Positions 1,491 through 64,000 of a DNA stretch of 64,000 bases are shown here, one piece after another. Under the pieces are notes generated by a model. It saw only the letters and a program-made list of their open reading frames with translations, did no database searches and was not told the DNA's origin. This DNA comes from Flaviflexus salsibiostraticola (lineage in GTDB: Bacteria > Actinomycetota > Actinomycetes > Actinomycetales > Actinomycetaceae): positions 1,116,001 to 1,180,000 of the forward strand of contig NZ_CP034438.1 in the NCBI RefSeq assembly GCF_003952265.1. The letters are read 5' to 3'. How positions within the stretch are numbered: position 1 is the first letter of the stretch; each line of letters starts with the position of its first letter. Both the position numbers and the translations under genes were made by a program.

Positions 1491-1934
1491 TCAGCCCTCG
1501 TACTCGGTGAGGAGGTCGATGCGGTCCTGGTGGCGCTGCTCGCCGGAGAACGGCTCCTCGAGGAAGGCGTCGACGAGTGCGAATGCCTCCTCCTGGGAGT
1601 GCTGGCGGGCGCCGATGGCGATGACGTTGGCGTTGTTGTGCTCGCGGCCGAGGCGGGCGGTCGCGTCCGACCACGCGAGGATCGCGCGGACGCCCTTCAC
1701 CTTGTTGGCCGCGATCTGCTCGCCGTTGCCGGAGCCGCCGATGACGACGCCGAGGGAGCCCTCGTCGGCGACAACGGCCTCCCCCGCTGCGAAGCAGAAC
1801 GGCGGATAGTGATCGAGCGCGTCGTAGTCGTGCGCGCCATGGTCGACCACCTCGTGGCCGGCCTCCTGCAGGTGCTTGACGAGAGCCTCTTTGAGCTCGA
1901 AGCCCGCATGGTCTGTACCGATGTGTATACGCAT
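1491..1934 (-). CDS. rpiB: Ribose-5-phosphate isomerase B
   Basis: Interconverts ribose-5-phosphate and ribulose-5-phosphate in the pentose phosphate pathway. The 147-residue protein starts MRIHIGTDHAG and carries the RpiB/LacAB signature GGSGNGEQIAANK. In this motif the catalytic base is Glu, as in mycobacterial enzymes, rather than the Cys of E. coli RpiB. The start at 1934 was chosen because it fits the family N-terminus; GGGAG lies only 2 nt upstream, so a start four codons earlier (1946) cannot be excluded. The gene is monocistronic, converging with cysE and diverging from the M13 peptidase gene at 2000. Confidence 0.93.
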   Translation of the reverse strand: MRIHIGTDHAGFELKEALVKHLQEAGHEVVDHGAHDYDALDHYPPFCFAAGEAVVADEGSLGVVIGGSGNGEQIAANKVKGVRAILAWSDATARLGREHNNANVIAIGARQHSQEEAFALVDAFLEEPFSGEQRHQDRIDLLTEYEG

Positions 1935-1963
1935 AGCTCCCAGCATAACCCGACCCGAATCGG

Positions 1964-1993
1964 TTCAGGTGCGACCACTGGTCCCCCTAGACT
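1964..1993 (+). promoter_or_regulatory. Promoter of the M13 peptidase gene, leaderless type
   Basis: TTCAGG (1964-1969), 18-nt spacer, TAGACT (1988-1993). The ATG at 2000 starts 6 nt after the -10 box, so the transcript would begin at or next to the start codon. No Shine-Dalgarno sequence is present, which agrees with a leaderless mRNA. Confidence 0.6.
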
Positions 1994-1999
1994 GGTCGA

Positions 2000-3982
2000 A
2001 TGACTGATCCCATACTCGACAGCGTCCTTACCGACGCCAAGCAATCCGTCCGCATCCAAGACGACCTCTTCCGCTGGGTCAACGGCACGTGGCTCGACAC
2101 CCATGAGATCCCCGCCGACCGTCCGAGTGACGGCTCCTTCTACCTCCTCAATGAGCAGTCGGAGGAGCGGGTCAAGGCCATCATCGACGAGCTGTCACAG
2201 GGCAGCCCGGAGGGTGACGCGAAGAAGATCGCGGACTACTTCCGCTCGTACATGAATCTCGATGCGATCAACGAGGCCGGCATCGCCCCTCTCGAGGGCG
2301 ACCTCTCCCTCATCCGCTCCGCCGACACGAAGGAGGCGCTGGCCGGGGTGACCGGGACGCTGATGCGCACCGGCGTTCGCGTCCCCTTCAGCTTCGACAT
2401 CGACGCGGACCTCAATGATCCGGACACGTACGTCCTGTTCGCCGCGCAGTCTGGACTGTCCCTGCCGGATGAGGCGTACTACCGCGCCGAGCAGCACGCA
2501 CCTACCTTCGAGGACTTCCGGGCGTTCGTCCCCGAATTCCTCGAACTCGCGGGCCTCGTCGATGACCCTGAGGGCGCCGGCGCCCGGATCGTCGGCTACG
2601 AGACTGCACTCGCCTCGCACCACGCCGACGTGGTGACGACCCGCGACACCGACAGGATCAACAACCCGATGCCGTGGTCCGACTTCGTCGAGTCCGCGCC
2701 GGGCTTCGACTGGGACGCCGCCCGCGAGGCTCTGGGCGTGCCCGCCGACCTCGTCGACCGCGTTATCGTCCTCACCCCCGACGCCCTCGCGGGCGCCGCG
2801 ACAGTCTGGTCGGAGACCGACCTCGATACCCTGAAGGAATACCTGTCCTGGCAGGTCCTCCTTGCACGCGCCTCCTACCTGACCGAGGAGATCGACAACA
2901 AGAACTTCGAGTTCTTCCGCAGGAGGCTCACGGGAACGACCGAGCAGAAGGAGCGCTGGAAGCGCGCCGTTGCGGTCGTCTCCGGTGTGCTCGGTGAAGC
3001 ACTCGGAAAGATCTATGTCGAGCGTCATTTCCCGCCCGACCACAAGGCGAAAATGGAGCAGCTCGTCGCCGATCTGCTCGAGGCCTACCGGGAATCGATC
3101 CAGGGTCTGGATTGGATGGGCGAGGAGACGAAGGTGCGTGCGATGGAGAAGCTCGCCACCTTCAATCCGAAGATCGGCTACCCCGACAGGTGGCGGGACT
3201 ACGCAGCCCTCGAGATCACCGATGACCTGCTCGGCAACGTGCGGGCCGCGAACGCCTTCGAGACCGACCGGGCGATCGCCAAGCTCGGTAAGCCGATGGA
3301 CCGCGACGAGTGGTTCATGCCGCCTCAGATGGTCAACGCCTACTACAACCCGGTGTGGAACGAGATCGTCTTCCCCGCCGCGATCCTCCAGCCGCCCTTC
3401 TTCGACCCCGACGCGGATGACGCCTGGAACTACGGCGGCATCGGGGCCGTCATCGGCCACGAGATCGGCCATGGCTTCGACGATCAGGGTTCGAAGTACG
3501 ACGCGACGGGACGCCTCAACAACTGGTGGACAGATGAAGACCGTAAGGAATTCGAGAAGCGGGCCGACGCCCTCATCGCCCAGTACAACGCCTACACACC
3601 CGCCCAGCTCGAGGACTCCGAGCACCACGTCAACGGCGCCCTCACGATCGGTGAGAACATCGGTGACCTGGGCGGTCTGACGATCGGGCTCAAGGCGTAC
3701 GAGATCGCCCTGCGCCGCGCAGGGTACGCGGGCCTGGAGGATGCCCCTGTCATCAATGGCGTCACCGGCGCCCAGCGCGTCTTCTACTCCTACGCCCGCA
3801 TCTGGCGGTCGAAGTCGCGCGACGAGATGGCGATCGTCCTTCTCTCGGTCGACCCGCACTCGCCCGCCGAGTTCCGCTGCAACGGCGTCGTCAAGAACCT
3901 CACGAGCTTCCATGAGGCGTTCGACGTGACCGAGGGCGACGAGCTCTACCTGCCGCCCGCCGAACGGGTCGCCATCTGGTGA
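2000..3982 (+). CDS. pepO: M13 family zinc metallopeptidase (PepO/neprilysin type)
   Basis: 660-residue oligopeptidase of the neprilysin family. The zinc motif HEIGH lies near residue 487 (context AVIGHEIGHGFDD), and the third-ligand motif ENIGD near residue 552. The family's NAYYNP segment, which binds substrate backbone, precedes them at about residue 450. The C-terminus (EFRCNGVVKN...) shows the typical C-terminal RCN element; the residue after it does not form the classical CxxW, as in many bacterial members. No signal peptide or membrane anchor is seen, so it should be cytosolic and degrade small peptides. It is transcribed alone, probably as a leaderless message, and ends at a strong convergent terminator. 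Confidence 0.93.
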   Translation: MTDPILDSVLTDAKQSVRIQDDLFRWVNGTWLDTHEIPADRPSDGSFYLLNEQSEERVKAIIDELSQGSPEGDAKKIADYFRSYMNLDAINEAGIAPLEGDLSLIRSADTKEALAGVTGTLMRTGVRVPFSFDIDADLNDPDTYVLFAAQSGLSLPDEAYYRAEQHAPTFEDFRAFVPEFLELAGLVDDPEGAGARIVGYETALASHHADVVTTRDTDRINNPMPWSDFVESAPGFDWDAAREALGVPADLVDRVIVLTPDALAGAATVWSETDLDTLKEYLSWQVLLARASYLTEEIDNKNFEFFRRRLTGTTEQKERWKRAVAVVSGVLGEALGKIYVERHFPPDHKAKMEQLVADLLEAYRESIQGLDWMGEETKVRAMEKLATFNPKIGYPDRWRDYAALEITDDLLGNVRAANAFETDRAIAKLGKPMDRDEWFMPPQMVNAYYNPVWNEIVFPAAILQPPFFDPDADDAWNYGGIGAVIGHEIGHGFDDQGSKYDATGRLNNWWTDEDRKEFEKRADALIAQYNAYTPAQLEDSEHHVNGALTIGENIGDLGGLTIGLKAYEIALRRAGYAGLEDAPVINGVTGAQRVFYSYARIWRSKSRDEMAIVLLSVDPHSPAEFRCNGVVKNLTSFHEAFDVTEGDELYLPPAERVAIW

Positions 3983-4045
3983 CCACCGGGCGGGTCATGG
4001 TGATGGACAAACGGGTCACGGTGACAGCCCAACGGAGCACCGACT

Positions 4046-4091
4046 GAGAAGGGTGTGGCGCGGAGGATCACCTCCGCGCCACACCCTTCTC
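4046..4091. terminator. Convergent terminator after pepO
   Basis: Perfect 21-bp inverted repeat (4046-4066 with 4071-4091) around the 4-nt loop ATCA, between two convergent genes. It is long and GC-rich enough to stop transcription from both sides. Confidence 0.85.
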
Positions 4092-4096
4092 GTGGG

Positions 4097-4720
4097 TCAG
4101 TTCGACTGAAGCGATGCGAGCATCTGCCGCACATCCTCGAGGTTCTCCTCGAAGATCTCCGGTGTCGCCGAGAAGGCGACCTCCTGCAGTCCGTCCTCGG
4201 CGAAGATCGGGTAGACAACCTGGCGGATCTGCACACCGTCGGCATCCCGCGAGACGATGATGCCCTCGACCGAGGTGCCCTCGACCTCGATCGGGTCGGC
4301 CTCGTCGACCGTCACGCCCTCACCGGTGAAGACATTCCCCGTCGCCGAGCGCCACTCCTCGTAGCTGGTCGGCACGCCGGAGATCGTGTTCGGAGCCCAC
4401 GTGCCGATGATGTTCGCCGCGAACTCGGCGTTGTTGACATCGGAGACGAGCAGGACGGTCATGTTGACCGTCTCGTCGAGCGGGGCGGGGTACGCCTGCC
4501 AGCCGTCGGCCAGAGTCAGGCTGTATCGCCCGTCGGTCGACGTGGCGACGCCATCCTCAACAACCATGACGTCGCCGGCATCCTCAGTCGGCTCCTCGGC
4601 CGCCGCCGAGTCGTCGCGCGTGCTCTCCTCGACGGTTCCGTTCGCCGGCTCCTCATCGGATGAGCAGGCCGCGAGCCCGGCGAGGGCGATGATCGCGGTC
4701 GCTGCCAGTCGTCTCATCAT
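4097..4720 (-). CDS. Putative lipoprotein with acidic linker
   Basis: 207-residue exported lipoprotein of unknown function. The N-terminus MMRRLAATAIIALAGLAAC is a lipoprotein signal with lipobox LAAC. It is followed by an acidic, low-complexity linker (residues ~20-50, rich in Glu, Asp, Ala and Thr) and then a compact domain beginning GRYSLTLADGW. This domain looks like the PsbP/LpqN-type folds seen in actinobacterial lipoproteins (WQAYPAP..., repeated strand patterns), but I cannot assign it firmly. Its ATG overlaps the stop of the upstream thiol protein gene in an ATGA (4717-4720), so the two are co-translated. Whether they share a role is not shown. Confidence 0.75.
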   Translation of the reverse strand: MMRRLAATAIIALAGLAACSSDEEPANGTVEESTRDDSAAAEEPTEDAGDVMVVEDGVATSTDGRYSLTLADGWQAYPAPLDETVNMTVLLVSDVNNAEFAANIIGTWAPNTISGVPTSYEEWRSATGNVFTGEGVTVDEADPIEVEGTSVEGIIVSRDADGVQIRQVVYPIFAEDGLQEVAFSATPEIFEENLEDVRQMLASLQSN

Positions 4721-54282: not shown

Positions 54283-55881
54283 TCACCTGACGGGGACGCC
54301 AGCCTTGAAGAGGCCGTAGATGTACCCGTCGGTCAGGGCCTCCCACGAGGCCTCGATGATGTCGCGGCCGAGGCCCACGGTCGCCCAGATGCCGGCCGGT
54401 GAGGACATCGAGATGATGACGCGGGTCGTCGCGCGGGTGGCCGCCGAGGGGTCGAGGATGCGGACCTTGAAGTCGATGAGCTCGCAGTCTTCGAGCTCCG
54501 GATAGACCGAGCACAGTCCGCCGCGCAGCGCCTGATCGAGGGCGTCAACCGGGCCGACACCCTCGCCGACGGTAACCGAGCGACCGGCCCCGGTCGAGAG
54601 CTTGACGACGGCCTCAGCCCCGTGCGATCCCTCTGAGCTGCCCGACAGGTGAGTCGTCCACGACTCGATGTCGAAGTAGGACAGCCGCTCGCCGAAGGCG
54701 ACCTCGCGGATGAGGAGCTCGACCGACGCATCCGTCGCGTCATACGTGTACCCGAGCGCCTCGGCCTCCTTGATCCGCCTCGTCACCTCGGAGAGGACGT
54801 CGGGGCGGTCGGACAGGTCGAGGCCCAGCTCGCGAGCCTTGAGCTCGATCGAGGCCCGCCCCGCCATGTCGGACACGATCATCCGCATATCGTTGCCGAC
54901 TCGGGCCGGGTCGATGTGCTGGTAGAGGTCGGCGTCGACCCGGATCGCGGAGGCGTGGAGGCCCGCCTTGTGGGCGAAGGCTGAGACCCCGGTGTACGGC
55001 TGGCGCCGGTACGGGGCGATGTTGACGATCTCCGCAACTGCGTGCGACACGCGGGACAGGTCCGCCAGCTGATCGTCGGTCACGACCTTGCGGCCCATCT
55101 TCAGATGAAGGTTGGCGATCGCGGTGAGGATGTTGGCGTTGCCGGTCCGCTCGCCGTAGCCGTTGACCGTGCCCTGGATGTGGGCGGCGCCGGCCGTGAC
55201 CGCCGCGAGGGTGTTCGCCACCGCCATCTCCCCATCGTTGTGGGCGTGGATGCCGATCGTGGCGGTGAGGCCCTCCTCGTCGAGGAGGGCAGACAGCTCA
55301 CCCACCCGGGCGAGGATCCCGTCGGGCAGCGCGCCACCGTTCGTGTCGCAGGCGATGACCGTGCTGGCTCCAGCGCGGACCGCCTCGACTGCGACGGCGA
55401 AGGTGTAGTCCCGGTCGTAGTCGGCCCCATCGAAGAAGTGCTCAAGGTCGACCATGACCTCGCGGCCCTGCTCGACGAGGTAGGCGACCGTGTCGCGGAC
55501 CATGCGGAGGTTCTCCTCCTCAGTCGTGCGCAGGGCCTTCGCCACGTGCCGAGCATCGGACTTCGCGACGAGGGTGATGATCGGGGCCTCGGAGGCGAGC
55601 AGCGCGGCGACCTGCTGGTCGTCCTCGACGTCGACACCGGCCTTGCGGGTGGCGCCGAAGGCGGCGAGGCGTGCCCGCGTCAGCGGCTGCGTCGCCGCGA
55701 TCTCCCGGAAGAACTCGGTGTCGCGCGGAATCGCGCCCGGCCATCCGCCCTCGATGATGTCGGCACCGTAGGCCTCGAGCATGGGCAGGAGGGTGAGCTT
55801 GTCGGCGACCGACAGGTTCATGCCCTCCTGCTGGGCGCCGTCGCGCAGCGTCGTGTCGTAGACGAGGACGTCGCCGCTCAT
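54283..55881 (-). CDS. cimA: (R)-citramalate synthase
   Basis: 532-residue enzyme of the LeuA/CimA family. It condenses pyruvate and acetyl-CoA to citramalate, the threonine-independent route to 2-ketobutyrate and isoleucine. The start MSGDVLVYDTTLRDGAQQEG is the diagnostic N-terminus, with the Mg-binding HAHNDGEMAVAN and GNANILTAIANLHLKMG later, and a C-terminal LeuA dimer/regulatory domain from about residue 400. It is distinguished from LeuA by DGAQQEG (citramalate type) and overall length. It overlaps ilvE in ATGA. The leuB product can process citramalate-derived intermediates, which explains the shared operon. Confidence 0.9.
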   Translation of the reverse strand: MSGDVLVYDTTLRDGAQQEGMNLSVADKLTLLPMLEAYGADIIEGGWPGAIPRDTEFFREIAATQPLTRARLAAFGATRKAGVDVEDDQQVAALLASEAPIITLVAKSDARHVAKALRTTEEENLRMVRDTVAYLVEQGREVMVDLEHFFDGADYDRDYTFAVAVEAVRAGASTVIACDTNGGALPDGILARVGELSALLDEEGLTATIGIHAHNDGEMAVANTLAAVTAGAAHIQGTVNGYGERTGNANILTAIANLHLKMGRKVVTDDQLADLSRVSHAVAEIVNIAPYRRQPYTGVSAFAHKAGLHASAIRVDADLYQHIDPARVGNDMRMIVSDMAGRASIELKARELGLDLSDRPDVLSEVTRRIKEAEALGYTYDATDASVELLIREVAFGERLSYFDIESWTTHLSGSSEGSHGAEAVVKLSTGAGRSVTVGEGVGPVDALDQALRGGLCSVYPELEDCELIDFKVRILDPSAATRATTRVIISMSSPAGIWATVGLGRDIIEASWEALTDGYIYGLFKAGVPVR

Positions 55882-57014
55882 GCCGACACCCGGTAGGTCC
55901 AGCCGTAGGGGTCCGGCTCGTGGCCGAGCTGGATGGCCGTGACCTGGTCGTAGATCGACTTCGTCACGTCCCCGCCCCCGATCGACACGTCGAAGCCCTC
56001 GCCGGCGATGCGGCCGATGGGGGTGACGACCGCGGCCGTGCCGCACGCGAACACCTCGGCCGCGCGCCCGGACTCGATGTCCGCGACGAGGCTCGTCAGG
56101 GGGATCGTCTCCTCGCGGACCGTGACCCCGCGGTCGCGCAGGATCTGGAGGATGACGCCGCGGGTGCCGCCCTCGAGGATGTTGCCGGTCAGCGCCGGAG
56201 TCGACACCGAACCGTCCTCGTAGACGACGAAGACATTCATGCCCCCGAGCTCATCGATGTTCGTGTTCGTCGCCGCGTCGAGGAAGCAGACCTCGTCGAA
56301 GCCCTCACCGTGTGCTTCGAGCTTCGGGACGAGGGAGGAGGCGTAGTTGCCGCCGCACTTCGCGGCGCCCGTGCCGCCGGGGCCCGCGCGATGGTAGTCC
56401 GGGGAGACCCAGATCGAGATCGGCTGGAAGCCGTTGACGAAGTAGGGCCCGGACGGGGAGGCGATGCAGAGGTAGTCGAGCCTGCGGGCCGCACGCACGC
56501 CGAGGAACGGCTCGGTCGCGACGATGAAGGGGCGCAGGTAGAGCGACGATCCGGGGATCGAGGGCACCCACTCCTCATCGGCCCGCACGAGGCCGACGAT
56601 CGAGGCGAGGAAGTCCTCGACGGGCAGTTCGGGGATCGCGAGGCGGCGGGCCGAGGCATTGAGCCGGTGGGCGTTGTAGCCCGGCCTGAACGTCCAGATC
56701 GACCCATCATCATGACGATAGGCCTTGAGGCCCTCGAAGATCTCCTGGCCGTAGTGGAAGACCGCCGCGGCCGGGTCGAGGGTCAGCGGGCCGTAGGGCT
56801 CGATTGTCTTCGACTGCCAGCCGCTTCCCTCCTCGTACACGGCGTGCGCCATGTGATCCGTGAAGTCGACGCCGAAGCTGAGGCTTCCGAAGATCTCCTC
56901 GCGCTGCTCGGGCGAGGCGGGGGCGGGGTTCGGCCTGTGCTCCCACAGCCCCGCCACCTCGTCGGCGGTCGGCAGCGGCAGCGCGGCGGCCTGTTCAAGT
57001 GCAGACAGTGTCAT
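55878..57014 (-). CDS. ilvE: Branched-chain amino acid aminotransferase
   Basis: 378-residue fold-IV PLP aminotransferase that makes Val, Leu and Ile from their keto acids. The PLP Lys is in AAKCGGNYASS (~residue 220), with VFHYGQEIFEGLKAYR, the substrate motif YLRPF and FLDAATNTNIDELGGMNVFVV as family features. Type II BCAT layout matches actinobacterial IlvE. It lies 11 nt after leuB and overlaps cimA. The gene order puts the final step of three pathways between LeuB and CimA. Confidence 0.95.
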   Translation of the reverse strand: MTLSALEQAAALPLPTADEVAGLWEHRPNPAPASPEQREEIFGSLSFGVDFTDHMAHAVYEEGSGWQSKTIEPYGPLTLDPAAAVFHYGQEIFEGLKAYRHDDGSIWTFRPGYNAHRLNASARRLAIPELPVEDFLASIVGLVRADEEWVPSIPGSSLYLRPFIVATEPFLGVRAARRLDYLCIASPSGPYFVNGFQPISIWVSPDYHRAGPGGTGAAKCGGNYASSLVPKLEAHGEGFDEVCFLDAATNTNIDELGGMNVFVVYEDGSVSTPALTGNILEGGTRGVILQILRDRGVTVREETIPLTSLVADIESGRAAEVFACGTAAVVTPIGRIAGEGFDVSIGGGDVTKSIYDQVTAIQLGHEPDPYGWTYRVSA

Positions 57015-57025
57015 GGTCTCTTCTT

Positions 57026-58081
57026 TCAGATCCGCGCCCCGACGGCGTCGCCGACCTCGGCGGTCGAGCGGATGAGCGGCATACCCGCTTCAGCGGCGTC
57101 GGCCCGCTCCTCCATGTCCGCGTCGACGGCAGCGGCGATGCGCTTCGCCTCGTCGGCGAGCCCGAGATGGTCGAGCAGGAGGGCGACAGAGGAGATCGTC
57201 GCGATCGGATCCGCCTTCTGCTGGCCGGCGATGTCGGGGGCGGAGCCGTGTACGGGTTCGAACATCGACGGGTATGCCCCCGTCGGGTTGATGTTGCCCG
57301 AGGCGGCGAGGCCGATGCCGCCGGTGATGGCGCCCGCCTCGTCCGTGAGGATGTCGCCGAACAGGTTGTCGGTGACGATGACGTCGAAGCGCGCCGGGTC
57401 CGTGACGAGGAAGATCGTCGCCGCATCGACATGGAGGTAGTCGGTCGTCACTCCCGGGTACTCGGCCCCGACACGCTCGACGGTCCGCCGCCAGAGATGA
57501 CCGGCGTTGACGAGCACGTTGTGCTTGTGGACGAGGGTGAGGCGGTTATCGCGCTGGGTTGCGAGCTCGAATGCGTAGCGGACGACCCGCTCGACGCCGT
57601 ACGCCGTGTTGATCGACACCTCGGTCGCGATCTCGTGCGGGGTGTCGACGCGCACCGCGCCGCCATTACCAGCGTAGAGACCCTCGGTGCCCTCGCGGAT
57701 CACGACGAAGTCGATGTCACCGGGATCTGCCAGCGGTGTCGGCACGCCCCGGTAGTGCTTCGAGGGACGGAGGTTGATGTAGTGGTCGAGGTCGAACCGC
57801 AGCTTGAGCAGGAGACCGCGCTCGAGGACACCGGACGGCATCGACGGATCGCCGACGGCGCCGAGGAGGATCGCATCGTGGGACTTGATCTGCTCGAGCT
57901 CGGCATCGGGCAGCACCTCGCCCGTGCGGTGCCAGCGGGCGGCGCCGAGGTCGAAGTGGGTTTCGTCGAGCGTGACGTCCGAGTCGCGGAGCGCCGCACG
58001 GAGGACCTTGATCCCTTCAGCGACGACTTCCGGTCCGATTCCGTCACCGGGGATCACTGCAAGCCTGATGGTTCGATTCAT
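57026..58081 (-). CDS. leuB: 3-isopropylmalate dehydrogenase
   Basis: 351-residue beta-decarboxylating dehydrogenase of the leucine pathway; it may also act on the citramalate-derived methylmalate. Motifs: [15 protein letters not shown] at the start, [31 protein letters not shown] [11 protein letters not shown] and [30 protein letters not shown]. The ATG at 58081 gives the standard N-terminus MNRTIRL. A 32-base palindrome separates it from ilvC, so it may be expressed from its own promoter as well as by read-through. It is followed by ilvE at 11 nt. Confidence 0.94.
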
Positions 58082-58157
58082 GTCGTCAATCCTAGCGTTC
58101 TGTCCACATGTTGAAATCGCCGTTCCGGGATTCGGAAGGCGTGTGGTGCGGCATGAG

Positions 58158-58189
58158 AGAGGTGCCCCGGCCGCGGCCGGGGCACCTCT
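58158..58189 (-). terminator. Hairpin between ilvC and leuB
   Basis: 32-base perfect palindrome directly after the ilvC stop (58196) and 76 nt before the leuB start. It probably limits read-through from ilvBNC into leuB-ilvE-cimA. Confidence 0.8.
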
Positions 58190-58195
58190 GCGCAC

Positions 58196-59766
<1,571 letters not shown>

Positions 59767-59774
59767 GTTTCCTT

Positions 59775-61568
59775 CTATTCTTCGTCGTCCCAGTCGGGAG
59801 CGAGATCCCGCGCGTACTGAATTTCGTCGTTGGAGACGCCCGCCGCAACCATCGGCCACACCATGGCGTCGGCCGAGACCTGGAAGTCGACGACGACCGG
59901 ACGGTCGTTGATCTCCATCGCCTGGCGGATCGTGTCGGCAACATCCTCCGGGCGCTCACAGCGGAGGGCGGCGCACCCGTAGGCCTCGGCGAGCTTGACG
60001 AAGTCGGGGACGCGGCGTGTGCCGTGGCCCGTGTCGAGGTCGGTATTCGAGTAGCGGCCGCTGTAGAACAGCGTCTGCCACTGGCGCACCATGCCGAGCG
60101 AGGAGTTGTTGATGATGGCGACCTTGATCGGGATGTCGTTGATGACGCAGGTGGCGAGCTCCTGGTTCGTCATCTGGAAGCAGCCATCGCCGTCGATCGC
60201 CCACACAACCTTGTCCGGCTGGGCAACCTTCGCGCCCATCGCCGCCGGAACCGACACACCCATCGTGCCCGCGCCGCCGGAGTTGATCCACGTCCGCGGG
60301 TCGCGGAACTTGAGGAACTGCGAGGACCACATCTGGTGCTGGCCGACGCCGGAGACGTAGATGGCGTCCGGGCCGACGATCTCGCTCAGCTGCTCGATGA
60401 CGTACTGGGGCGCCATGTAGCCGTCCTCGGTCGGCGTCCAGCCGAGCGGGTAGGTCTCCCGCATCCTATTGAGGCGGGTCCACCACTCGGAGATGTCGCG
60501 CTTGTCGTACTGACGGTACGCGGCCGGCATCTCCGCCATGAGGTCGAGGATCGTCTCCTTGACGTCGCCGACGATCGGGACATCCGCGTGGCGGTTCTTA
60601 CCGATCTCGGCCGGGTCGATATCGGCGTGGATGATCTTCGCGTCCGGCGCGAACGAGTCGAGGCGGCCCGTCACACGGTCGTCGAAGCGCGCACCGAGGG
60701 TGATGAGAAGGTCGGAGCGCTGCATCGCGTCAACCGCCGCCACCGTGCCGTGCATGCCGGGCATGCCGAGGTTGTGCGGATCGTCGGTCGGCAGCGAGCC
60801 GATCGCATTGAGGGTGGTGACGGCAGGGATGCCGGTCATCTTCACCAGCTCGCGCAGCTCATCGGCCGCACCCGAGCGGATGACGCCGCCGCCCACGTAG
60901 AAGACGGGGCGCTTCGCGGTCGCGATAAGACGTGCCGCCTCACGCACCTGGCGGGCGTTCGGCTTCGTCACGGGCCGGTATCCCGGCAGGTCCCGCACGG
61001 GCGGCCACACGAAGTCGCAGTCGGCGTTCTGGGCGGACTTGGCCACGTCGACGATGACGGGGCCGGGGCGTCCGGACTGAGCGAGCTCGTAGGCCTCGGC
61101 GATGCGGGCGGGGATGTCCTTCGGATCGGTGACGAGGAAGGAATGCTTCGTGATCGGCATCGTGATCCCGACGATGTCGGCCTCCTGGAAGGCGTCCGTG
61201 CCGATGAGGCTCGCGCCGACCTGGCCGGTGATGCACAGCATCGGGACCGAGTCCATGTAGGCGTCGAGAATCGCCGTCGTCAGGTTCGTCGCGCCGGGAC
61301 CGGAGGTGGCGATGCAGACGCCGACCCGTCCGGTGGCGTGCGCGTAACCCTCCGCCGCGTGGCCCGCACCCTGCTCGTGGCGCACGAGGATGTGGCGGAC
61401 CGAGCTCGAATCCATGAGCGGGTCATAGGTCGGCAGGATGGCGCCGCCGGGGATGCCGAATACCGTATCTACACCCAGCTCTTCCAGTGACCGGATAATC
61501 GACCGGGCTCCGGTCGACTTCTCTCGGATGGCACCCTGTGCCCTGATGGCACCGGTCTCAGCCAGTGC
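59775..61568 (-). pseudogene. ilvB: Acetolactate synthase large subunit, 5' end separated by an insertion sequence
   Basis: Thiamine-diphosphate enzyme that makes acetolactate, first step for Val and Leu. From the insertion boundary (61568) the frame is open, and removal of the element restores a 605-codon gene beginning at 63055. Kept parts include the [15 protein letters not shown] loop, the catalytic-Glu region [18 protein letters not shown], the FAD-binding middle domain and the C-terminal TPP motif [19 protein letters not shown]. Between the element and the ATG at 61415 the frame has no ATG, GTG or TTG codon; starting at 61415 would lose the GIPGGAI loop and the first strand. The protein is therefore probably inactive unless translation starts unusually. 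Stop is 8 nt before ilvN. Confidence 0.9.
61561..61568. repeat. 8-bp target site duplication, left copy
   Basis: GCCAGTGC directly outside the left end of the element; the identical copy lies at 63024-63031 outside the right end. It is the size expected for IS256-family insertion. Confidence 0.92.
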
Positions 61569-61613
61569 GGCTTATAGGACAAAATGTGTTGGTTTTGTTT
61601 GATCGGAGGGGTG

Positions 61614-62756
61614 TCAGTCCCAGGTTGTGATGTAGCTGGTCGAGTGGTGCAGCTCGTTCCAGACGGCTGCGGTGCCGATGCCCGGCAGGCCGATGTCCCG
61701 GGCGTGTTCGCCGCGGCTGGCCGCAGCTCGGTAGTAGGCCTGGATCTGGGTGTCGGTGGGCATGGTCCTGAGGATGCGTGCGGGACTGGCAGGGTATTCA
61801 GTGTGCATGTAGCACCACCACATGATCGCTTTGATCCGCCTGTCCAGGCTCATCCCGCGGTGATCGCGTAGCAGGGCCCGCAGTTGAGTGTTGATCCCAC
61901 CCTCGATCCGGTTATTCGTCGCTGGCAGTGGCATGTGCAGGTAGGCGTCGACCGGGAAGTTGGCGGGATCGACGTAGGTGAACAAGGTCTTGGTCCGGAT
62001 CAGCGTATCGAGGGCTGAGCGGGCCGTGACCAGACGCTGGTGAGTGAGTACGACCTGCCCCGTGGCGAGTCGAGTGCGCTCAGCCAGGAAGGCCTCCCAT
62101 GTGGCGCGCCATTGGGTGTAAGCGGCCAGCCATGCCGCGGCCCCGGTGTTATCGCGGACGTGGAGCAGCGCTTTAGCCAGGCCGTAGAGTTCCACTCCGG
62201 CCTGAGTGCGGGGCCGGGTCGTGGTCTGGCGACGCACCTGGCTGAAAGCATGGAACGTACAGCGCTGGACCTTCGTGGTGGGCCAGTGCGCCCGGCGGGC
62301 TTTGGCAAAGCCTGATCCACCATCGGTGACCACTACCTGTGGCGGTGCGATCCGGGCCAGCAGCGCACCCCAGGCCTGGCTGTGTTCACTGCGTGCGAGG
62401 TACCAGCCCACGACATGGGTGTCGGTGGAGGCGATCAGGATCACGGCGCTGCGTCCGAGGTGGATCCCATCGACGTAGATCACCCGGTGGACCTCGTCGA
62501 CCACCTCGGGGGTGGGCCACAGCTGCCAGAACCGTGCGGTGCGCCGACGGAAGGTCCGTCCCGCCCCGGGCAGGTCTCGCTGGCGCTGGCGGGAAAACAG
62601 AAAGGACAAGAACAGGGCGAAGTCTTTCGCGGAGGTGTCGATCGCCGCTACGCGACTCGTCCTGCACCCGGCACAGCGGTAGCGCTGACGTCCCGTACTG
62701 GTCTTTCCATAGCGTGTCATCGCCTGCTCGCACGGGCGGCAATAAGGAGTGTTCAC
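61614..62756 (-). CDS. IS1249-group transposase (IS256 family, DDE)
   Basis: 380-residue transposase that cuts and joins the element ends. The N-terminus has a zinc-ribbon pattern (CRPC ... RYRCAGC). The catalytic triad is visible: Asp in RVIYVDGIHLGRSAV (~residue 95), Asp in VVVTDGGSGFAKARR (~140) and Glu in ATNNRIEGGINTQLR (~290), followed by HRGMSLDRR. The middle part CTFHAFSQVRRQTT carries the conserved C/H insertion region of the family. The start is GTG at 62756, with GGGAGG directly before it. It appears complete and without frameshifts, so the element may still be active. Confidence 0.93.
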   Translation of the reverse strand: MNTPYCRPCEQAMTRYGKTSTGRQRYRCAGCRTSRVAAIDTSAKDFALFLSFLFSRQRQRDLPGAGRTFRRRTARFWQLWPTPEVVDEVHRVIYVDGIHLGRSAVILIASTDTHVVGWYLARSEHSQAWGALLARIAPPQVVVTDGGSGFAKARRAHWPTTKVQRCTFHAFSQVRRQTTTRPRTQAGVELYGLAKALLHVRDNTGAAAWLAAYTQWRATWEAFLAERTRLATGQVVLTHQRLVTARSALDTLIRTKTLFTYVDPANFPVDAYLHMPLPATNNRIEGGINTQLRALLRDHRGMSLDRRIKAIMWWCYMHTEYPASPARILRTMPTDTQIQAYYRAAASRGEHARDIGLPGIGTAAVWNELHHSTSYITTWD

Positions 62757-63023
62757 CCTCCCTATCAGGCAACTTGGACCCGGCCTTTTCGGTGAGAACG
62801 CGCCGAAAAGTCGGGATCAAACCAACACGAAATGTCCTATAAGCCGGCCCCGTGAAACCAACTTCAACCCCCACTTTTCCGCGTCAAAGCAACCAAAGGT
62901 CGGGGTCAAGCCAACACGAAATGTCCACCCATCAAGTTCAGCCGCACGAACTTCAACACCGGCCTAATGGCGGCACAGCAACAAAAGATCAGGGTCAAAC
63001 CAACACGAAATGTCCTATAAGCC
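62757..63023. repeat. Three 89-bp tandem units at the right end of the element
   Basis: The core CCAACACGAAATGTCC recurs with its TGTCC at 62833, 62922 and 63011, exactly 89 bp apart; ACTTCAAC at 62861 and 62950 keeps the same spacing. Units 1 and 3 end in CCTATAAGCC, the element end; unit 2 has CACCCATCA instead. The units are diverged by eye to roughly two-thirds identity, so the expansion is old. Confidence 0.88.
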
Positions 63024-63055
63024 GCCAGTGCAGCCGGGGATGAAGGTTTCCCCAT
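63024..63055 (-). pseudogene. ilvB: Severed 5' end of ilvB (start codon and first 11 codons)
   Basis: ATG at 63055 with AAGGAGGAACC upstream, then MGKPSSPAALA, ending in the right copy of the target duplication (63024-63031). In the present DNA this frame continues into the element and stops about 50 codons on (near 62906). It joins in frame to the open ilvB frame at 61568 when the element and one duplication copy are removed. Confidence 0.92.
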
Positions 63056-63080
63056 GGTTCCTCCTTGAATCGGTATGGCA

Positions 63081-63110
63081 ATGAAAAGCCCCCTGCTTCT
63101 GACAGGGGGC
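63081..63110 (-). terminator. ilvB attenuator (intrinsic terminator)
   Basis: On the minus strand GCCCCCTG pairs with CAGGGGGC around TCAGAAG, followed by TTTT. It lies 26 nt upstream of the ilvB ATG and 14 nt after the leader-peptide stop. GCGCGCC at its 5' edge (63108-63114) can pair with GGCGCGC inside the leader-peptide gene (63140-63146), which gives the rival antiterminator stem expected of attenuation. Confidence 0.85.
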
Positions 63111-63123
63111 GCGCAACACAGCC

Positions 63124-63171
63124 TCAGCAGGCCAGTGCGGCGCGCCGTGGTACTACAAGAATCATTGCCAT
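63124..63171 (-). CDS. ilv leader peptide (15 codons, Ile-Leu-Val-Val)
   Basis: MAMILVVPRRAALAC, then TGA. It contains Ile, Leu and two Val in a row plus a further Leu, the three end products of the operon, so slow translation here would sense branched-chain aminoacyl-tRNA. It starts 7 nt after a -10 box, so it would be read from a leaderless mRNA; GTG at 63177 is an in-frame alternative start. A terminator with a rival pairing follows. Corynebacterium glutamicum ilvB is known to have an attenuator with a peptide of this size. Confidence 0.85.
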   Translation of the reverse strand: MAMILVVPRRAALAC

Positions 63172-63178
63172 GTGCACA

Positions 63179-63208
63179 AGAGTAACCGCAGGCCCTTCTC
63201 CAGAGCAA
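63179..63208 (-). promoter_or_regulatory. Promoter of the ilvB operon
   Basis: Minus strand TTGCTC, 18-nt spacer, TACTCT (complement of 63179-63184), 7 nt before the leader-peptide ATG. It is intact and outside the insertion sequence. Confidence 0.65.
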
Positions 63209-63304
63209 GCCAAAAGTCCCGAATCTCAGATGGTGGCGTGCCGTCCTAGCTGATGAGATGACAAAAAGGGTGGGGCGAGAGACGGAAAAGAGCGCCGATA
63301 CAAC

Positions 63305-63333
63305 GAAAAAGGGAGCCACGCGGCTCCCTTTTC
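63305..63333. terminator. Bidirectional intrinsic terminator
   Basis: GGGAGCC/GGCTCCC stem (63311-63328) with A-rich 5' flank and TTTT 3' flank, so it works on both strands. It ends the transporter gene, which stops at 63348. Confidence 0.85.
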
Positions 63334-63347
63334 GCTTGGATGAATCG

Positions 63348-64000
63348 CTACATCCCGCCGAGGAAATGGGCGACGAGAATCTTCGTGATCATCGCGACCG
63401 GATAGACGAGAGCGTACCCGAGCGCCACGCGCGGGTCGGCTCCCGTACGTCCGTTGGCGAAGGCGAGCACCGCGGGCTGGGTCTGAGCACCGCCGAGGAG
63501 GCCGGACAGTCTCGTCCCGCCCATCTTGAAGATGCTGCGCATGGCCGCATACAGTCCGACTGCCATGATCGACGTGACGAGGATGCCGAGGAGGAGGATC
63601 TTCCACCACTCATCACCGCTGAACGCCTGGCCGATCTGCCCGCCCGCGTTCGTGCCGGCCTGGGCGAGGAAGAGCAGAAGACCGAGCTCCGACATGACGG
63701 CGTTCGCCGACTTCGGCAGGGCCGTGACGACACTCCCGATCCTGCCGAGCCTGCCCATGATGAGACCGACGATGAGGACGCCGGCCGCGGCACCGAGTGA
63801 GAAGCTGCCGCCGCCCGGCATCGGCACCTCGATCGCGCCGAGGAGCATGCCGGCGCTGAGACCGAGGCCGAGGGCGACGGGGTTGATGTCGGTCAGGCCC
63901 TTGGACGAGTCGCCCAGCCAGCGGGAGATCTCCTTGAGCTTCATCGTCGGCCCGACGACGCGGACCCTGTCCCCCATCTCCACCATCATGGACGGGATGG
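63348..64000 (-). CDS. AspT/YidE-type transporter, C-terminal part (5' end outside window)
   Basis: The frame is open to the window edge, so at least 217 residues of a larger protein are seen. It begins inside a TrkA-C (RCK) domain end (MMVEMGDRVRVVGP) and then has five or six hydrophobic helices with LGLSAGMLLGAIEVPMPGGG and LAFANGRTGADPRVALGYALVYPV, typical of the second half of the YidE/YbjL/AspT family with its duplicated membrane domain. The family includes aspartate:alanine exchangers, but many members have unknown substrates. The ilv genes start just downstream on the same strand, after a terminator. Confidence 0.85.
   Translation of the reverse strand, partial: IPSMMVEMGDRVRVVGPTMKLKEISRWLGDSSKGLTDINPVALGLGLSAGMLLGAIEVPMPGGGSFSLGAAAGVLIVGLIMGRLGRIGSVVTALPKSANAVMSELGLLLFLAQAGTNAGGQIGQAFSGDEWWKILLLGILVTSIMAVGLYAAMRSIFKMGGTRLSGLLGGAQTQPAVLAFANGRTGADPRVALGYALVYPVAMITKILVAHFLGGM

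Follow-up and report, generated by a model that had tools for sequence, protein, structure and literature searches.

Introduction

In Staphylococcus epidermidis, IS256 reportedly alternates between insertion and precise excision, a behavior said to have been described by Ziebuhr in 1999 and by Hennig and Ziebuhr in 2008. Broken branched-chain amino acid (BCAA) genes are found in strains such as Escherichia coli K-12, which carries an ilvG frameshift, and dairy Lactococcus lactis, which carries ilv/leu mutations. The target duplications of IS256 are 8 or 9 bp long (available excerpt of PMC5065196). In the accessible part of a study on Corynebacterium glutamicum, IS1249 gave auxotrophs at 0.2%, and two transposon mutants mapped to ilvB were double auxotrophs for valine and isoleucine (PMC1590026). 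Here we describe an IS1249-family insertion sequence that interrupts ilvB, encoding the catalytic subunit of acetohydroxyacid synthase, in the genome of Flaviflexus salsibiostraticola. The window analyzed, a stretch of 64,000 nucleotides, corresponds to bases 1,116,001–1,180,000 of this genome, which is a single contig of 2,608,471 bases rated 100% complete. The element has a length of 1455 bp (61569–63023) and lies within codon 11 of ilvB, and the gene has probably lost its function through the loss of translation initiation. Positions refer to the window unless the genome is named, and all genes and stranded features described within the window are on the minus strand.

Insertion of an IS1249-family element into ilvB

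The element is bordered on both sides by the 8-bp direct repeat GCCAGTGC (61561–61568 and 63024–63031), which duplicates ilvB codons 9 and 10. This 8-mer is not rare, occurring six times in the 64 kb (both strands counted) versus about two expected; yet it abuts the element exactly at both ends. The terminal inverted repeats consist of 13 bases, GGCTTATAGGACA, identical at either end. The element encodes a transposase of 380 amino acids with a GTG start (61614–62756), which is oriented as ilvB and matches positions 2–381 of the 382 positions of the IS1249 profile NF033544 with 456.7 bits (cut-off, 300). The transposase score, the terminal inverted repeats, and the 8-bp target duplication assign the element to the IS1249 family (IS256 group).

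We compared the locus with those of five Flaviflexus genomes (G001–G005; the genome of F. salsibiostraticola is labelled G000). In G005, whose IlvB is 96% identical, the site is empty and the repeat occurs there only once. The 31 bases upstream, including one repeat copy, are all identical between G005 and the present locus, followed by 39 identical bases of 40 downstream. In all five congeners, ilvB is free of inner stops and begins with an ATG led by a Shine-Dalgarno (SD) sequence. Because of the unoccupied site in G005 and the uninterrupted ilvB of the five congeners, we take the structure to be a true insertion of an IS1249-family element into ilvB with an 8-bp target duplication. The genome contains eight near-identical copies of the element with at most five differences from their majority, a classical source of misjoins, and one of them might have been misplaced at ilvB during assembly. 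However, a misjoin would not make an 8-bp duplication of local sequence with the same length as at five other copies, nor would it place the element precisely in a site that is unoccupied in G005, so that an assembly error is very improbable. The sequence-only reading of this DNA had proposed that an IS1249-like element with terminal inverted repeats splits ilvB between 8-bp direct repeats, and each of these points was borne out. It had also claimed that removal of the element gives an uninterrupted 605-codon frame, which agrees with the arithmetic (24 + 8 + 1786 bases = 606 codons including the stop, i.e. 605 residues; the flanks were not joined).

Copies of the element in the genome

Besides the eight copies, the remaining 17 of the 25 matches to the element in the genome are partial (68–93%). 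The copies differ by 0–5 bases from their majority, and six of them have perfect 8-bp duplications: those at ilvB and at genome positions 331347, 884069, 1494855, and 1980480, and the inner copy of a nested pair. The chance of one perfect 8-bp duplication is 1 in 65,536 per copy. The duplications are imperfect at the outer nested copy (7 of 8 bases) and at the copy at 1405920 (6 of 8 bases; AAGGTGGG/AAGGTTTG). The copy in ilvB has no private base; its single difference from the majority is common to two others, which makes a group of three with T at position 605.

These eight near-identical copies at different places imply recent transposition activity. The insertion into ilvB itself is recent, to judge from the perfect 8-bp duplications at six of the eight copies and the lack of any private base in the one at ilvB. 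The recent event suggested by the sequence-only reading is thus supported. The downstream frame of ilvB is still open.

In the nested pair (genome 2025259–2028176; positions 1501–4418 of locus L093), one copy is inserted near the end of another, and the duplication, AAAAGATC, is the element's own sequence. The mismatched repeats at the copy at genome 1405920–1407374 (locus L089) may represent a decayed duplication or a rearrangement. The upstream end of the element (62819–63023) contains the end motif AACACGAAATGTCC (given for the plus strand) three times in direct orientation, at element positions 1256, 1345, and 1434. These are 89 bases apart, and only the first and the last extend into TATAAGCC. 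A shorter element with an inner boundary near position 1277, considered in view of the threefold end motif, was rejected: all seven copies uncut by nesting reach position 1455, and the duplications sit there. A second element, present at four places in the genome, aligns to positions 1287–1455 of the IS1249-family element with 71% identity. Among the congeners, G005 has one copy (97%) and two short matches, G004 has three matches at 71%, and G003 has four partial matches (two at 90%); no match was found in G001 and G002.

Parts of ilvB lost and retained

The native start of ilvB is ATG 63055. The ribosome binding site AAGGAGGA (63059–63066) ends 3 bases upstream of it with a computed pairing of −11.2 kcal/mol, in agreement with the in-frame start and good ribosome binding site noted from the letters alone. 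The upstream piece of the gene (63024–63055) comprises ten codons (MGKPSSPAAL) and two bases; it runs into the element, where the frame ends after 49 residues (stop, 62906–62908). The native ribosome binding site would now serve only this 49-residue fusion peptide.

The downstream piece (59775–61568) extends from native codon 9 to the stop, without native codons 1–8, and is open and in frame, with the GIPGGAI motif and three thiamine diphosphate (TPP) domains. In the ilvB frame, a TAA stop (61572–61574) lies in the terminal repeat of the element. The frame read from 61571 matches positions 2–118 of the 119 positions of TPP_enzyme_N, and scores 1077.1 bits with PRK07789 (cut-off, 881) and 745.1 bits with TIGR00118 (cut-off, 538.35). 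The earlier view that the part carrying GIPGGAI is cut off did not hold, as the motif sits downstream of the element, in frame, within the N-terminal TPP domain. The insertion has deprived ilvB of its start codon, its strong ribosome binding site, and eight codons belonging to a variable tail.

No in-frame ATG, GTG, or TTG is present from 61571 to 61416; the first is ATG 61415, inside the N-terminal TPP domain. The claim that no such codon occurs before 61415 is thus correct for the ilvB frame and incorrect for another frame (GTG 61552, 61534, and 61474; ATG 61426). No ribosome binding site precedes ATG 61415 (+0.4 kcal/mol), and a product starting at this codon would be devoid of the first 37 domain positions (profile from 38) and would lack GIPGGAI. 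A transposase-IlvB fusion as a source of normal IlvB was also considered and rejected: although the transposase and ilvB frames share the same phase (61616 to 61415 = 201 bases), TGA 61614–61616 and TAA 61572–61574 lie between them.

We then surveyed 109 ilvB loci, consisting of the best 80 named loci and 29 from a whole-genome search, own locus included. The GxPGG motif was located in 108 of them (it was missed in L139), which leaves 107 for comparison. Of these 108 actinobacterial loci, the present one is alone in that its open frame contains no ATG, GTG, or TTG before GxPGG. No Flaviflexus title was present among the best 80 IlvB loci from the genome-collection scan. In the IlvB protein search, which scored 8000 candidates, the highest identity among the 120 matches listed was 91%, and 'Flaviflexus sp.' matched at 90%, in a database clustered at 90%.

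Between GxPGG and the end of the gene (560 codons), F. salsibiostraticola and G005 differ at 151 codons synonymously and at 25 nonsynonymously. Because of this low number of nonsynonymous differences, ilvB appears to have been under selection until recently; it has acquired no stop since. The same numbers are relevant to a mixed or recently cultured population, in which the element would have reached ilvB while the strain was being isolated or passaged in rich medium, with the wild type persisting in the field. Selection until lately, the downstream frame without a stop, and an ilvB copy without a private base within the three-copy group are what would be expected in that case; however, the evidence consists of one genome per species. 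We consider this explanation, which overlaps the others, possible and rather tentative.

Search for a second synthase and the pathway genes

Five matches to TPP_enzyme_C were found in the genome. One is IlvB; the best curated models for the remaining four are PRK09124 (pyruvate dehydrogenase, PoxB type), IolD, MenD, and DXS, and all four exceed the respective model's cut-off. A search of the genome with the IlvB protein gave four matches, at IlvB and at three of the same places. By the TPP_enzyme_C profile and the IlvB protein search, no second acetohydroxyacid synthase was found in the complete genome. A second synthase, which the sequence-only reading had named as one way to spare the strain a growth requirement, is consequently not supported: besides IlvB, the search for another ilvB/alsS gave only PoxB, IolD, MenD, and DXS.

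One small subunit gene was found in the genome, the ilvN beside ilvB. In addition to ilvN, the genome has ilvC, IlvD/Edd-family genes, ilvE, leuA, leuB, leuC, cimA, and a BrnQ carrier gene. Since these genes are present and no second synthase was found, the tested pathway appears to be whole except for its first common enzyme. A route for BCAA uptake is likely. The IlvD/Edd-family genes are two (genome 712224–713192 and 1181878–1182855), as in G001, G004, and G005, with one in G002 and G003.

Predicted consequence for BCAA synthesis

From these features, we infer that a copy of an active element of the IS1249 family transposed recently into codon 11 of ilvB and duplicated 8 bp, whereupon the native start and ribosome binding site would drive only the 49-residue peptide. 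The catalytic frame is open, but the first start codon that it offers lies midway through the first domain. The sole catalytic subunit of acetohydroxyacid synthase found would then not be made in normal amounts, and the cell would need isoleucine, valine, and leucine from outside via carriers such as BrnQ. We estimate the probability of such a loss of function through loss of initiation, with isoleucine and valine (and leucine) auxotrophy or severe bradytrophy, at about 0.72. Because C. glutamicum ilvB mutants require valine and isoleucine, the same auxotrophy would be expected here. The leucine precursor comes from the valine branch, so a need for leucine would also be expected. Both 8-bp repeats remain intact and the frame is otherwise undamaged, so excision, if precise, would restore ilvB, and reversion by this route is possible in principle. 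Both physiological proposals of the sequence-only reading are thus probable, namely that no normal IlvB is made, as the native start and ribosome binding site are cut from the catalytic frame, and that BCAAs are required, as no second synthase was found in the genome.

Several points weigh against this interpretation. In the survey, 10 of the 107 other loci, including those of G005 and G001, likewise lack an ATG, GTG, or TTG over the final 38 codons; what gives the missing spare start its weight in F. salsibiostraticola is that the native one has been severed. Natural homologues need no tail longer than the 38 codons that remain here, as 9 of the 107 have a stop closing the frame no more than 36 codons from GxPGG. 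A single assembly was examined, and the population may be mixed. Finally, weak initiation at AUU, AUC, or CUG in the open frame could give some working enzyme.

The last point leads to a leaky gene, in which read-through transcription from the ilv promoter or the transposase gene, combined with a near-cognate start (AUU 61499, AUC 61529, or CUG 61565), would yield low amounts of nearly full-length, working IlvB, making the strain a bradytroph and not an auxotroph. The frame after the TAA carries nearly the whole TPP_enzyme_N domain, as described above. The element is oriented as ilvB and has only two terminator-like sites inside on the ilvB strand, with 5 pairs each, although a simple scan (sigma-70 type only) found no promoter. 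For AUU 61499, the computed pairing is −5.8 kcal/mol, about half that of the native start, and ends 7 bases upstream; a product from this codon would begin five residues inside the domain as aligned. AUC 61529 precedes GxPGG by 24 codons, and an SD-led ATG is found at that distance in 9 of the 107 other loci; however, the pairing of AUC 61529 is only −3.9 kcal/mol with a gap of 2 bases, and CUG 61565 has none (+0.4 kcal/mol). Near-cognate starts are also poor, CUG reaching 0.86% of AUG in the available excerpt of PMC11497404. A leaky gene is thus unlikely, and loss of initiation with a resulting growth requirement is the interpretation we prefer.

The mechanism is an ordinary one, a natural gene disruption by an insertion sequence, of which this is a clean case. 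A search limited to open-access literature turned up no account of an ilvB insertion arisen in nature, which is not proof of absence. Within a complete genome, the only acetohydroxyacid synthase found thus bears an unambiguous natural lesion, and a congener displays the corresponding site still empty. Should the strain prove auxotrophic, its culture media and metabolic models would have to supply isoleucine, valine, and leucine, and tools based on gene presence that count the open ilvB frame would wrongly predict prototrophy. The locus also offers a ready test of how much enzyme near-cognate starts yield.

The ilv leader and neighboring genes

Upstream of ilvB, a short Ile/Leu/Val-rich frame encoding the putative leader peptide MAMILVVPRRAALAC (63124–63171) is followed by a terminator-like hairpin (63088–63110), consisting of GCCCCCTGTCAGAAGCAGGGGGC and then TTTT, which is the arrangement of an ilv leader attenuator. 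A candidate leader peptide is found at the same offset in all five congeners, and these five candidates retain the I/L/V-rich stretch. The leader region 63070–63180 folds better than all 200 shuffled sequences (z = −3.62), and the predicted stem joins the leader start region with bases after the terminator. No Rfam match at E up to 1 was found in 61400–63400. Actinobacterial ilv leaders of this type are described in the accessible parts of PMC1262725 and PMC10272879; for Corynebacterium, attenuation is supported (PMC10272879), and for the Streptomyces coelicolor ilvB leader, codon changes had no effect on regulation (PMC1262725).

The intact leader is directly upstream of the element and points into the transposase gene in the same orientation. 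On this basis, a nutrient-gated switch can be imagined, in which BCAA shortage would cause read-through of the leader into the transposase gene; higher transposase levels, or the act of transcription, would then increase excision of this same element and restore ilvB, so that starvation would favor the curing reversion. The S. coelicolor result, as given in the excerpt cited above, counts against this idea, as do a weak 5-pair terminator-like site (62915–62899) between the leader and the transposase and the position of the transposase start in a predicted hairpin, though the latter folds no better than shuffled sequences (z = −1.07). We regard such a switch as highly doubtful.

Downstream of ilvB and ilvN (small subunit; 59236–59766), and in the same direction, are ilvC (58196–59221), the leuB open frame (57026–58195; true start probably internal), ilvE (55878–57014), and the citramalate synthase gene cimA (54283–55881), all of them, like ilvN, uninterrupted. 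The start of cimA was picked by us within a longer frame, and the product scores 561.1 bits with TIGR00977 (cut-off, 450). This gene suggests a threonine-independent route to isoleucine, which likewise needs IlvB.

Comparison with known systems

The element resembles IS1249 of Tn5432 (Corynebacterium xerosis), a member of the IS256 group, in that its transposase passes the IS1249 profile over nearly the full length. In contrast to the preference for triple A or T targets reported for IS1249 in the accessible part of PMC1590026, which does not define the family, such a run is present in only one of the six perfect duplications here, AAAAGATC. The locus is similar to the C. glutamicum mutants described in the same source in being an ilvB insertion in an actinobacterium. 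However, those mutants were generated experimentally by means of an IS6100 vector, whereas this insertion is found in a sequenced genome, at codon 11.

As with IS256 in S. epidermidis, an IS256-group element with short target duplications lies in an otherwise open gene, and the event is reversible in principle. The two cases differ in that the gene here is biosynthetic whereas polysaccharide adhesin synthesis is affected there, and that excision is only predicted here. Unlike this locus, E. coli K-12 and L. lactis are not known to owe their broken BCAA genes to such insertions; K-12 keeps other isozymes, whereas in F. salsibiostraticola the one synthase found is affected.

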